Positions 16,530 to 46,455 of a DNA stretch of 64,000 nucleotides are shown here, piece after piece. The notes beneath the pieces were generated by a model that saw nothing but the letters and a program-made list of their open reading frames with translations, made no database searches and was not told where the DNA came from. A program made the translations under genes and the position numbers. The stretch is from Cellulosimicrobium cellulans (GTDB lineage Bacteria; Actinomycetota; Actinomycetes; Actinomycetales; Cellulomonadaceae): the NCBI RefSeq assembly GCF_016921195.1, contig NZ_JAFGYF010000002.1, positions 496,001 through 560,000 on the forward strand. The letters run 5' to 3'. Position 1 is the first letter of the stretch. Every line of letters begins with the position of its first letter.

Positions 16530-16973
16530 ATGGACGACGACGTGGCACCCGGCGAGCGGACCGCGCGGGTCTTCCGCCGCCGGCTCAACGAGCTCTTCGC
16601 ACGCGGGCGGGGCGGGCGCCCCGTGACCAACCGCGAGGCCGCCCAGTGGATGACGGAGCGCGGGTACTCGATCAACGAGGCCTACCTCAGCGCGCTGCGC
16701 GGCGGGCACCGCTCCTCGCCGAGCCTGCGCGTCGTCGAGGGCATCGCCGCGTTCTTCCACGTGAGCACGGGCAGCCTCGTCGACCCGGAGGAGGACCCCG
16801 ACGACAGCCTGCGGGCCGCCCTCGCCGACGAGGGCGTCGAGCAGTTCGCGCTGCGCGCCCAGGGGCTCTCGCCCGAGAACGTCCGCGCGATCATCGAGAT
16901 CGTGGACCGGGTGCGGCGCCTGGAGCACCTCCCTCCCGTCACCCCGCCCGTGCCGGACGGCGACCGTGGATGA
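16530..16973 (+). CDS. XRE-like helix-turn-helix transcriptional regulator
   Basis: 147 residues. The N-terminal 80 residues form an extended HTH region (VTNREAAQWMTERGYSINEA, YLSALRGGHRSSPSLRVVEG, IAAFFHVSTGSLVD), similar to Cro/C1-type regulators with an elongated first helix such as EspR. The C-terminal part (RAQGLSPENVRAIIEIVDRV) looks like a dimerisation helix. It overlaps the next gene by 8 bases, and the protease-like partner may act on it, by analogy with ImmR/ImmA. First gene of a three-gene unit. Confidence 0.85.
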   Translation: MDDDVAPGERTARVFRRRLNELFARGRGGRPVTNREAAQWMTERGYSINEAYLSALRGGHRSSPSLRVVEGIAAFFHVSTGSLVDPEEDPDDSLRAALADEGVEQFALRAQGLSPENVRAIIEIVDRVRRLEHLPPVTPPVPDGDRG

Positions 16974-17370
16974 CCTGCTGCGCGCCGCAGGCCTGGACCG
17001 TGCCCGCAGCATCGAGGAGGCGTGCCGCCTGGTCGCGGCGGTCCGCGGCCGGCCGCTCGAGGTCGTCGAGGGCGACCTCGGCCCCGGTGTGACCGGGCTC
17101 TGGCTCGCCTTCCCGGAGCGCGACCTCGTCCTCGTCGACGCCCGGCAGACCCTGGCCGGCCAGCACCGCGACCACGTCGTCGCGCACGAGCTCGTCCACG
17201 TCCTCGACGCGGCGGCCACCGCGGGCGCCCCGCGCGTCGGCGCGTGCCGGGACGGGTACGACGACCCGGACGAGCTGCGCGTCGAACGACTCGCGAGCGA
17301 GCTCATGATCTCGATCGCCTCGCACGGGAGCTCGGCGAGCCGGCTCACGTCGCTGGAGCTGTACCGGTGA
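16966..17370 (+). CDS. ImmA/IrrE-like zinc metallopeptidase
   Basis: 134 residues starting at GTG (VDDLLRAAGLDRA). Zinc-protease motif HELVH at residues 74-78 preceded by DHVVA, and a downstream ERLASELM (about 107-114) that matches the third-ligand helix of the ImmA/IrrE family. Family members (ImmA of ICEBs1, IrrE/PprI of Deinococcus) cleave or derepress a partner HTH repressor; the partner encoded upstream fits this. Both ends overlap neighbours (8 bases upstream, GTGA downstream), implying coupled translation. Confidence 0.85.
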   Translation: MDDLLRAAGLDRARSIEEACRLVAAVRGRPLEVVEGDLGPGVTGLWLAFPERDLVLVDARQTLAGQHRDHVVAHELVHVLDAAATAGAPRVGACRDGYDDPDELRVERLASELMISIASHGSSASRLTSLELYR

Positions 17371-18455
17371 GCCACGCGCTCGAGCTCCTCGCCACGGCGC
17401 TCTTCACCACCGCGGCGGCGTGGACCGGGCTGCGCGCCCGCACGCGCGCCGACGCGGCCCTCCCCCTGGGCCTGGGCTTCGTCGCCGTCGCCTGCGCGCT
17501 GCGGGTGCCCCTGGTCGCCGACCTGCTCAAGGAGCACGCACCCGCCGGCACGCACGAGGTCGCCAAGCACGTCGCCCTCGTCACCGGCTGCCTCTTCGTC
17601 GGCGTGTGGGCGTACAGCGCCACCACCGGCCGGGCGCCGCGCACCCGGCACGTGGCGCTCGCGGCCGCGGGCGTCGGGACCGCCATGGTGGCGCTCGCCG
17701 CGGCGAGCGGACCCTGGACGACCCACGACCTCGACGCGCAGGTCCACGACCGACCCCTCATGTGGGGCTACTGGGCGCTCTACTACGGGACGTTCCTCAC
17801 GGCGACCGCGACCTTCGCCCTCTCCTGCCTGCGCACGCGCTCACGACGACCGCTGCGCCTGCGCTGGGGCATGGACGTGGCCGGGGCGGGCGCCGTCGTC
17901 GCCGTCGTGTGGGCCGTCGTGAGCTTCGTGGCGATGGTGCAGCACGAGCCGGGCAGCACGGAGCCCTACCTCGTCCTGGGCCTGCGCACGCGGTACCTCG
18001 TGCTCGCGGCGAGCGTCCTGCTGACCGCGGGAATCGTGGGCCAGCTCGCGTCGTCCGCCGCGTTCGCGCGCGAGCGGCGACGCGACCTCGGCCACCTCCA
18101 CACGTTCCTCACGGCGGTCGTGGGCGACGGCGGGCTGCGCGGGTCGAGCGCCGCGGTGGACGAGTACCACCGCACCATCGAGATCCTCGACGGGCTCACC
18201 ACGCTCGCCCTGCACTCGCGCCGCGACGACGTGGACCACGTGCGCATCGCCGTGCCGGGGAGCTCGCGCGAGGTGATCCTCGCCTACCAGCTCCAGGTCG
18301 CCGCCATCCGCAGGGCGCGCGGCGACGCGCCGAGCGTCGACCCCGACGACTGGTCCGGGCTCCTCGCCGACGACGACGCGCTGCGACGGCTGGGGCGCGC
18401 GCTGCGCGACCGCACGAGCCGGGAAGGGACGACCCGCGTCCTCGTGGGTGTCTGA
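17367..18455 (+). CDS. Seven-TM membrane protein, MAB_1171c/DUF6545-like
   Basis: 362 residues from a GTG overlapping the protease stop. Seven hydrophobic segments (approximate residues 4-20, 31-50, 65-85, 92-112, 131-153, 168-190, 208-230) are followed by a soluble C-terminal domain of about 125 residues containing DEYHRTIEILDGLTTL, which I read as the conserved motif of the DUF6545 / MAB_1171c family found beside HTH and ImmA/IrrE genes in actinobacteria. Annotators call some members putative transporters; no transport motif is visible, and a sensor role is equally possible. Confidence 0.75.
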   Translation: MSHALELLATALFTTAAAWTGLRARTRADAALPLGLGFVAVACALRVPLVADLLKEHAPAGTHEVAKHVALVTGCLFVGVWAYSATTGRAPRTRHVALAAAGVGTAMVALAAASGPWTTHDLDAQVHDRPLMWGYWALYYGTFLTATATFALSCLRTRSRRPLRLRWGMDVAGAGAVVAVVWAVVSFVAMVQHEPGSTEPYLVLGLRTRYLVLAASVLLTAGIVGQLASSAAFARERRRDLGHLHTFLTAVVGDGGLRGSSAAVDEYHRTIEILDGLTTLALHSRRDDVDHVRIAVPGSSREVILAYQLQVAAIRRARGDAPSVDPDDWSGLLADDDALRRLGRALRDRTSREGTTRVLVGV

Positions 18456-45717: not shown

Positions 45718-45790
45718 GCGGATGTGGCTCAGTTGGTAGAGCATCACCTTGCCAAGGTGAGGGTCGCGGGTTCGAGTCCCGTCATCCGCT
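45718..45790 (+). tRNA. tRNA-Gly (anticodon GCC), copy 1
   Basis: 73 bases; acceptor GCGGATG/CATCCGC with discriminator T; anticodon stem TCACC/GGTGA enclosing TTGCCAA (anticodon GCC); T-arm GCGGG-TTCGAGT-CCCGT. CCA is not encoded. Confidence 0.97.
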
Positions 45791-45838
45791 CGGAGGCCCA
45801 CTCTCCGCCCGCTCTCGCGGCGGCGGAGGGCAGGTCGC

Positions 45839-45909
45839 GGTGGAGTGGCCGAGAGGCGAGGCAGCGGCCTGCAAAGCCGTATACGTGGGTTCGAATCCCA
45901 TCTCCACCT
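45839..45909 (+). tRNA. tRNA-Cys (anticodon GCA), copy 1
   Basis: 71 bases; acceptor GGTGGAG/CTCCACC with discriminator T; anticodon loop CTGCAAA between GCGGC and GCCGT; T-loop TTCGAAT. CCA not encoded. Confidence 0.95.
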
Positions 45910-45929
45910 CGCAGACAGCACCACCCTGG

Positions 45930-46001
45930 GGGCGATTGGCGCAGCGGTAGCGCGCTTCCCTGACACGGAAGAGGTCACTGGTTCGATCCCAGTATCGCCC
46001 A
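45930..46001 (+). tRNA. tRNA-Val (anticodon GAC), copy 1
   Basis: 72 bases; acceptor GGGCGAT/ATCGCCC with discriminator A; anticodon stem CTTCC/GGAAG around CTGACAC; T-arm ACTGG-TTCGATC-CCAGT. Confidence 0.96.
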
Positions 46002-46010
46002 CGAGCACGA

Positions 46011-46052
46011 CGCGAGAGGCCGCCCGGGCACCGTCCGGAGCGGCCTCTCGCG
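46011..46052 (+). terminator. Terminator after first tRNA cluster
   Basis: CGCGAGAGGCCG pairs perfectly with CGGCCTCTCGCG (12 bp) around an 18-base loop, 9 bases after tRNA-Val. Confidence 0.75.
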
Positions 46053-46100
46053 TGCCGACCATCGCCCGGACCGGATGCACGATCCGGCCGGGAAGTCGGC

Positions 46101-46106
46101 TAGTAT
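46101..46106 (+). promoter_or_regulatory. Promoter of second tRNA cluster
   Basis: TAGTAT within GGCTAGTATGTGC, 52 bases before the second tRNA-Gly. No good -35 match; the bases around GCGCCGGA just downstream are shared with the first cluster's leader. Confidence 0.45.
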
Positions 46107-46157
46107 GTGCTTCGCGCCGGATCACGAAGGCTCTCAGGAGCCGGACGGACCGGCCGC

Positions 46158-46230
46158 GCGGATGTGGCTCAGTTGGTAGAGCATCACCTTGCCAAGGTGA
46201 GGGTCGCGGGTTCGAGTCCCGTCATCCGCT
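46158..46230 (+). tRNA. tRNA-Gly (anticodon GCC), copy 2
   Basis: Same 73-base sequence as the copy at 45718, including acceptor GCGGATG/CATCCGC and loop TTGCCAA. Confidence 0.97.
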
Positions 46231-46284
46231 CGGAGGCCCACTCTCTGGCCTGCTCTCTCGGGAGCGAGAGGGAGCACGTCTCAT

Positions 46285-46355
46285 GGTGGAGTGGCCGAGA
46301 GGCGAGGCAGCGGCCTGCAAAGCCGTATACGTGGGTTCGAATCCCATCTCCACCT
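46285..46355 (+). tRNA. tRNA-Cys (anticodon GCA), copy 2
   Basis: Same 71-base sequence as the copy at 45839, anticodon loop CTGCAAA. Confidence 0.95.
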
Positions 46356-46378
46356 CGCATGCAGTGCAGCAACACCCC

Positions 46379-46450
46379 GGGCGATTGGCGCAGCGGTAGC
46401 GCGCTTCCCTGACACGGAAGAGGTCACTGGTTCGATCCCAGTATCGCCCA
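46379..46450 (+). tRNA. tRNA-Val (anticodon GAC), copy 2
   Basis: Same 72-base sequence as the copy at 45930, anticodon loop CTGACAC. Confidence 0.96.
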
Positions 46451-46455
46451 CCAGC

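Follow-up and report, generated by a model that had tools for sequence, protein, structure and literature searches.

RESULTS

Anatomy of the trio

The window analysed in this work is a stretch of 64,000 nucleotides from Cellulosimicrobium cellulans (contig NZ_JAFGYF010000002.1, positions 496,001 to 560,000), and our subject is a trio of plus-strand genes within it that encode a helix–turn–helix (HTH) regulator, a peptidase and a membrane protein. The HTH gene (16530–16973, ATG start) encodes a 147-residue regulator of the EspR family, the peptidase gene (16966–17370, GTG start) a 134-residue ImmA/IrrE-like (M78-like) zinc peptidase, and the membrane-protein gene (17367–18455, GTG start) a seven-helix protein of 362 residues that is a remote relative of MAB_1171c. 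The gene coordinates confirmed the arrangement described in the original prediction, which had been made from the letters of the window alone: the HTH and peptidase genes overlap by 8 bases and the peptidase and membrane-protein genes by 4 bases. All three frames were intact in 11 Cellulosimicrobium genomes, in which the ratio of nonsynonymous to synonymous differences (pN/pS) was 0.105 for the HTH gene, 0.205 for the peptidase gene and 0.239 for the membrane-protein gene. The three genes are under purifying selection, and since the frames are kept in these genomes with low pN/pS they are not a product of chance.

The HTH protein is related to EspR and contains a constrained C-terminal segment

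Residues 13–133 of the HTH protein matched the EspR structures in the PDB (E = 1.7e-11), with both the HTH and the C-terminal dimer domain aligned. Because this match covers nearly the full length of the protein, the EspR-like label given to it in the original prediction is correct. A profile built from 13 HTH sequences (A7), from which the divergent matches at L046, L048, L050, L053–L056, L068 and L072 as well as near-identical copies were omitted, found EspR at 3.9e-48 and DdrO, over the HTH portion alone, at 1.3e-5. The PADLOC capH model matched the window protein at E = 4.5e-4 and 12 of the 13 aligned HTH proteins at E<=0.01.

Among the stretches of the operon compared, that of residues 100–136 showed the strongest constraint (pN/pS 0.034 in Cellulosimicrobium). 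It includes ALRAQGLS (residues 107–114, 16848–16871, plus strand), which aligns with the AARTVGLS segment of the mycobacterial EspR set described below and which we regard as the candidate recognition or cut segment of the C-terminal domain. The arginine of this segment, R109 in the window protein, was present in 12 of the 13 aligned family members and replaced by histidine in the remaining one (L071).

Upstream of the HTH gene, inspection by eye of the 11 Cellulosimicrobium sequences revealed no conserved inverted repeat that could serve as an operator. The alignment of these sequences showed, immediately ahead of the start codon, CACAAT (CAGAAT in two), which may be the −10 element of a leaderless transcript, and a further block, possibly part of the divergent small open reading frame (ORF). 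One of the 11 sequences (L007) carried tandem GCCACGTGCC-type repeats in this region.

Active-site residues are conserved in the peptidase family

The HELVH motif of the peptidase (residues 74–78, 17185–17199, plus strand) is the presumed zinc-binding and catalytic motif. We aligned the window protein with 17 relatives whose genes lie close to related membrane genes. In all 18 sequences HExxH and E103 (codon at 17272–17274, plus strand) were invariant, and 17 of the 18 had E107, at which the ERLASELM sequence starts. Both HELVH and ERLASELM had been named in the original prediction, which was thus confirmed in this respect; by comparison with the M78 family, E103 is the probable third zinc ligand. 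The predicted model of the peptidase consisted of three strands followed by two helices that carried HELVH and E103/E107. Among the aligned peptidases, 11 of 18 matched Pfam Peptidase_M78 (PF06114) at E<=0.1, the best at 1.4e-5, and the one for which a score was given reached 17.9 bits, below the cut-off of 22; the PADLOC capP model matched 10 of 18 at E<=0.01.

In Oerskovia flava (L090 11–1048, the same stretch as L079) the C-terminal half of the peptidase was fused in frame, at the contig start, to an N-terminal part that looked serine-recombinase-like by eye. An insertion would explain this, as would a join made in assembly.

The membrane protein is a remote relative of the MAB_1171c and DUF6545 families

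The membrane protein matched NCBIfam MAB_1171c (NF042915) with E = 3.4e-19 and 69.1 bits, below the curated cut-off of 100, and Pfam DUF6545 (PF20182) with E = 4e-4 and 21.3 bits, below the gathering threshold of 24.4. The AlphaFold model contained seven long helices followed by a poorly predicted tail, with a predicted local distance difference test (pLDDT) of 67 overall. The tail, presumed to be cytoplasmic, extends from about residue 236 (18072–18452, plus strand) and contains the DUF6545-like RTIEILDG sequence. Of the earlier description as a seven-transmembrane protein with a DUF6545/MAB_1171c tail, the seven helices and the family relationship were retained; with scores under both cut-offs we treat the protein as a remote relative, not as a member, of these families. 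The nearest named matches were Cellulosimicrobium records with 93–95% identity. In two records titled C. funkei (L086 and L089) the membrane protein differed markedly (94 vs 84%).

The three families co-occur beyond Cellulosimicrobium

We searched a sample of 396 actinobacterial genomes and defined adjacency as a distance within 3 kb; because few candidates were scored in most genomes, 4 for MAB_1171c and 10 for profiles A7 and A8, the phylum counts are lower bounds. NCBIfam MAB_1171c was detected in at least 34 of the 396 genomes, and over its cut-off in at least 12. Of 51 membrane-protein matches the best 40 were kept and the weakest 11 omitted; 34 of the 40 had a peptidase gene nearby, 17 of these together with an EspR-like gene. 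Queries consisting of the window proteins alone gave 24 HTH and 34 peptidase matches in 48 membrane-gene stretches, 10 of these stretches from Cellulosimicrobium. Viewed from the other partners, 32 of 49 peptidases lay near a membrane gene and 22 near an EspR-like gene, and among the 26 EspR-like genes that scored strongly (>=100 bits) 19 had the peptidase, 15 had all three genes and 7 had neither partner. Relatives of the three families therefore adjoin one another outside the genus of the window.

The arrangement varied between genera. Many copies in genus g46, whose genomes are large and which appears to be Streptomyces-like, were found with no detected EspR-like gene. In two genomes of another genus (G107 and G289) an ORF with a weak match to the membrane profile (0.0013 and 0.66) stood after the peptidase gene, where the membrane gene would be expected, and a convergent EspR-like gene came next. 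We scanned eight genes downstream of membrane genes, seven from g46 and one from g45. Five were flavin adenine dinucleotide (FAD) oxidoreductase-like, all following the membrane gene at g46 loci (L051, L054, L057, L060 and L063; L057 below cut-offs); the other three were an amidohydrolase, an amidase and, in g45, an MPAB_Lcp-type oxygenase. The FAD oxidoreductase-like gene is perhaps the regulated output in g46. At L051, L058 and L059 two tandem MAB_1171c-type membrane genes lay behind one peptidase gene.

In a mycobacterial genus the peptidase–membrane gene pair adjoins espR

The most informative part of the analysis is a link that the original prediction had not seen. In genus g47, identified as mycobacterial from its EspR, the HTH gene adjoining the peptidase and membrane genes is the EspR orthologue itself (E = 4.2e-69); the window protein is about 36% identical to it. 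EspR was found in 117 of 118 g47 genomes. Close peptidase matches (E 1.9e-84 or better) and membrane-protein matches occurred in the same 62 of 118 genomes; inclusion of weaker peptidase matches, which are probably other copies, raised the number to 76. In all 63 copies of the pair the peptidase and membrane genes shared a strand and overlapped or abutted, and in 62 of these (61 of the 118 genomes) espR lay convergent downstream, at a distance within 126 bases in 60 cases and of 385 and 1634 bases in the other two. In the remaining copy (G551) the contig breaks. Since 62 of the 63 copies are convergent with espR, adjacency by chance is untenable. Eight of the 65 g47 membrane-gene rows were flagged with one internal stop.

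The EspR segment is frozen in species that carry the pair

The g47 genomes allowed a comparison of 60 EspR genes from pair-bearing genomes with 54 from pair-lacking ones (114 genes from 117 genomes; the incomplete genes of G453, G466 and G510 and one of two identical-scoring copies in G461 were omitted). The AARTVGLS sequence was present in 57 of the 60 pair-bearing EspR genes and in none of the 54 pair-lacking ones. It had been found in 20 of 20 genes of the first pair-bearing set, and the later-fetched set gave 37 of 40 against 0 of 34. AARTVGLS was also retained in L220, a pair-bearing EspR that groups with the pair-lacking ones. The solved EspR structure has RIAQRAHGLP at this segment and is thus of the pair-lacking type.

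The pN/pS of EspR residues 100–112 was 0.064 in the pair-bearing set and 0.423 in the pair-lacking set. For residues 87–132 the values were 0.170 and 0.426, and for the DNA-binding part (residues 2–86) 0.066 and 0.082. We considered whether the pair-bearing set was merely a shallow clade. This was rejected because its synonymous divergence was higher than that of the pair-lacking set in all three stretches (0.511 vs 0.418 for the N-terminal part). At matched synonymous distance (bins 0.2 to 0.8) the pN of the segment ranged from 0.005 to 0.045 in pair-bearing and from 0.214 to 0.250 in pair-lacking genes. In a comparison of non-overlapping nearest-neighbour pairs (30 and 26), which are only roughly independent, the two sets differed in the segment (p = 1.5e-6) and in the C-terminal part (p = 2.2e-5), with p = 0.14 for pS.

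The trio occupies a fixed site in Cellulosimicrobium

The membrane gene was found in 11 of 17 Cellulosimicrobium genomes, that of the window included, and the peptidase gene in the same 11. All 11 showed the order thrS, small ORF (59 codons), HTH gene, peptidase gene, membrane gene. The six genomes lacking the trio had no membrane-protein match anywhere in the genome, and thrS was kept in all six; the trio was absent from about 6 kb upstream of thrS in five of them, the small ORF being recognised in four, and the contig of the sixth stops about 0.6 kb upstream of thrS. Given the same order in all carriers and the retention of thrS in the genomes lacking the trio, it is a lineage-specific unit at a fixed site and not a mobile island. 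The original view of an inserted, accessory unit is thus only partly right: part of the genus lacks the trio, and its site is constant in the carriers.

A record titled Sphaerisporangium cinnabarinum ATCC 31213 (QAPD01000001.1, L088) carried the Cellulosimicrobium thrS–trio locus with a thrS 97.6% identical; its title is probably wrong. At L109 (genome G014, 48–2050) thrS matched in two pieces in different frames, a frameshift or a sequencing error.

A Pfam scan identified the six neighbours of the trio as a HIT protein, thrS, the small ORF (without a match), a TetR regulator, an ABC ATPase and an ABC permease. The PADLOC matches near the trio were those of the HIT protein to ThsC (4.2e-9) and of the ABC ATPase to mad3 (1.2e-42), mad8 (4.5e-21) and others, which we read as generic HIT and ATPase matches. 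No immune operon of the kind that accompanies CapH/CapP was recognised among these six neighbours, and no relatives were found in viral contigs. With neighbours that are ordinary by Pfam and PADLOC matches that are generic, a defence role, which the original prediction had offered as one possibility, is unsupported and was rejected as the leading reading. The segment 13000–23000 of the window gave no Rfam match. Elsewhere in the window, a tRNA Gly-Cys-Val cluster in two tandem copies was noted at 45718–46453.

DISCUSSION

A proposed membrane-gated proteolytic switch

From the gene anatomy, the family relations, the conservation of active-site residues, the co-occurrence and the pair-dependent selection on the EspR segment, we consider it reasonably probable that the trio forms an IrrE/DdrO-like proteolytic switch, gated at the membrane, that acts on an EspR-family regulator. 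The HTH protein would dimerise through its C-terminal domain and act on the promoters of its targets. The seven-helix protein would serve as the input, not the output: it would sense an envelope-side or membrane signal, and its cytoplasmic tail would activate or release the peptidase. The peptidase would then cut the C-terminal segment of the HTH protein, possibly around L108–R109 of FALRAQGLS, the corresponding cut in EspR being expected around A104–R105 of AARTVGLS. Such a cut would remove the dimerisation part, so that cooperative promoter action would be lost and target expression would change. The switch of repressor, peptidase and membrane protein outlined in the original prediction is strengthened by the co-occurrence, the invariance of E103 and the constraint on the EspR segment, without its defence part. 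Of the three findings named there as fatal to it, two, a lack of co-occurrence in other genomes and a missing third zinc ligand, did not materialise.

IrrE has been reported to cut DdrO, a protein of 129 residues, between L106 and R107 (PMC7907104), and both L108–R109 of the window protein and A104–R105 of EspR sit at a comparable place. We propose cutting at this segment because the frozen stretch occupies that position and its arginine is kept in nearly all aligned members. In another DdrO the cut loop was reported to lie within the C-terminal domain required for dimerisation, and alanine at E116, R118 and G119 lowered cleavage while alanine at L117 did not (PMC10904395). Removal of the 10 C-terminal residues of EspR reportedly prevented dimerisation and ablated espACD activation (PMC3315491).

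A wider reading, to which we give an even chance, is that EspR, usually treated as a nucleoid protein that stands alone, began as the regulatory component of a peptidase switch under membrane control. Roughly half of the g47 species studied would have kept the switch together with the frozen cut site AARTVGLS, the others would have lost the pair, with the EspR C-terminal domain diverging unswitched, and the Cellulosimicrobium trio would be the same switch in a compact operon.

Several observations weigh against the switch and its extension to EspR. Taken alone, the window peptidase had no family-model match above chance, Pfam Peptidase_M78 and PADLOC capP included; a profile search against IrrE reached E = 0.46 only, the confidence of the peptidase model was modest (pLDDT 71), and fold searches with this model returned no IrrE structure among the matches listed. 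The phylum counts hold partly by construction, because the genes used to build profiles A7 and A8 were themselves neighbours of such membrane genes, and the association is incomplete: 6 of the 40 best membrane genes had no peptidase within 3 kb, of the 49 peptidases 14 had a membrane gene without an EspR-like one and 13 lacked both, and 50 of 72 EspR-like matches, mostly weak ones, had neither partner, the other 22 having a peptidase. In g47 the limits 100–112 were picked after the first 20 + 20 sequences, the pair-bearing and pair-lacking groups represent few lineages (5 state changes on a weak tree), and the N-terminal pN also differed slightly between them (p = 0.04, nearest-neighbour pairs). 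The divergence of pair-lacking EspR might reflect a new use of EspR and not release from the peptidase. EspR has also been described as an activator, and the protein lacking its 10 C-terminal residues was reported to be unaffected in DNA binding (PMC3315491); since truncated EspR binds DNA without dimerising, a cut is expected to end dimer-dependent action and not all DNA contact. Cleavage of the HTH protein is itself a proposal drawn from sequence comparison and from the analogy with IrrE/DdrO.

Alternative explanations

The peptidase and the HTH protein could form a switch of which the membrane protein is the output, a transporter or other effector, and not the sensor. Its gene is the last in the operon, the NCBIfam family is named 'putative transporter', and MAB_1171c has been termed an integral membrane transporter protein (PMC8707978). 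The same source reports that biofilm mass was roughly halved in a MAB_1171c mutant and that its cefoxitin minimal inhibitory concentration was 4 vs 16. This phenotype is a weak guide, as in the same table 6 of the 12 mutants of this class share the cefoxitin value of 4 and 9 have a clarithromycin value of 0.5. We regard such an output as unlikely, however: in g47 it is the peptidase gene, and not the convergent espR, to which the membrane gene is coupled, 17 of the 40 membrane genes in the phylum sample had a peptidase but no EspR-like gene, and seven helices with a tail would be atypical for a transporter. A peptidase that binds the C-terminal segment of the HTH protein without cutting it, as an anti-repressor or a membrane tether sequestering the regulator at the membrane, would fit the same genetic and selection evidence, since binding alone would also freeze the segment. 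The retention of HExxH and E103 in every aligned relative is what an active enzyme would be expected to show, which makes this explanation distinctly improbable in our judgement.

Pairs of HTH and ImmA/IrrE-type proteins have been classed as toxin–antitoxin systems in some publications, and relatives match the capH and capP models, so that an Xre/COG2856-type toxin–antitoxin or phage-defence unit was also weighed. The ordinary neighbours, of which the HIT protein and ABC ATPase alone have PADLOC matches, the fixed chromosomal site in Cellulosimicrobium, the espR locus in g47 and the lack of relatives in viral contigs all argue against it, and we keep this reading as a minor, highly improbable rival.

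Comparison with known systems

If the membrane-gated switch is correct, proteolysis would connect the cell surface to a regulator by an additional route. In reports on IrrE and CapP these switches respond to intracellular signals, such as single-stranded DNA or oxidative treatment; for IrrE, responses to single-stranded DNA or to redox conditions or zinc (PMC7907104) have been described. The espR link provides a concrete proposal for how an EspR-family regulator could be switched off, with a named candidate bond, and the species with and without the pair form a natural comparison set. The uncharacterised MAB_1171c/DUF6545 family gains a candidate role; PMC8707978, in the portions at hand, assigns MAB_1171c no molecular function by experiment. 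The window membrane protein is homologous to this family and has a similar tail, with scores below both curated cut-offs.

The IrrE(PprI)/DdrO system of Deinococcus resembles the trio in combining an HTH regulator that has a C-terminal dimer domain with an M78-like zinc peptidase, and the window HTH protein, like DdrO, carries an LR pair at a similar place in its C-terminal domain. IrrE contains HTH and GAF-like domains, whereas the window peptidase is a bare domain of 134 residues coupled to a membrane protein. CapH/CapP, found in the cyclic-oligonucleotide-based antiphage signalling system (CBASS) and other immune operons, likewise has its HTH and peptidase genes together, and relatives of the trio match its models. 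The trio, in contrast, has no recognised immune operon beside it, and the portions of the CapH/CapP literature at hand mention no membrane component. The HTH protein belongs, over nearly its full length, to the family of EspR, the mycobacterial nucleoid-associated regulator; espR in g47 is convergent with the pair, whereas the window HTH gene shares an operon with the peptidase gene. Among the matches listed from the open-licence literature, in the portions at hand, we found neither a link between EspR and such a peptidase nor a trio with a membrane protein and a tie to EspR; EspR and IrrE were never named together in one paper there, and a single paper named MAB_1171c or DUF6545. Each part is of a familiar type, and what appears to be new is how they are combined: the added membrane protein and the connection to EspR.
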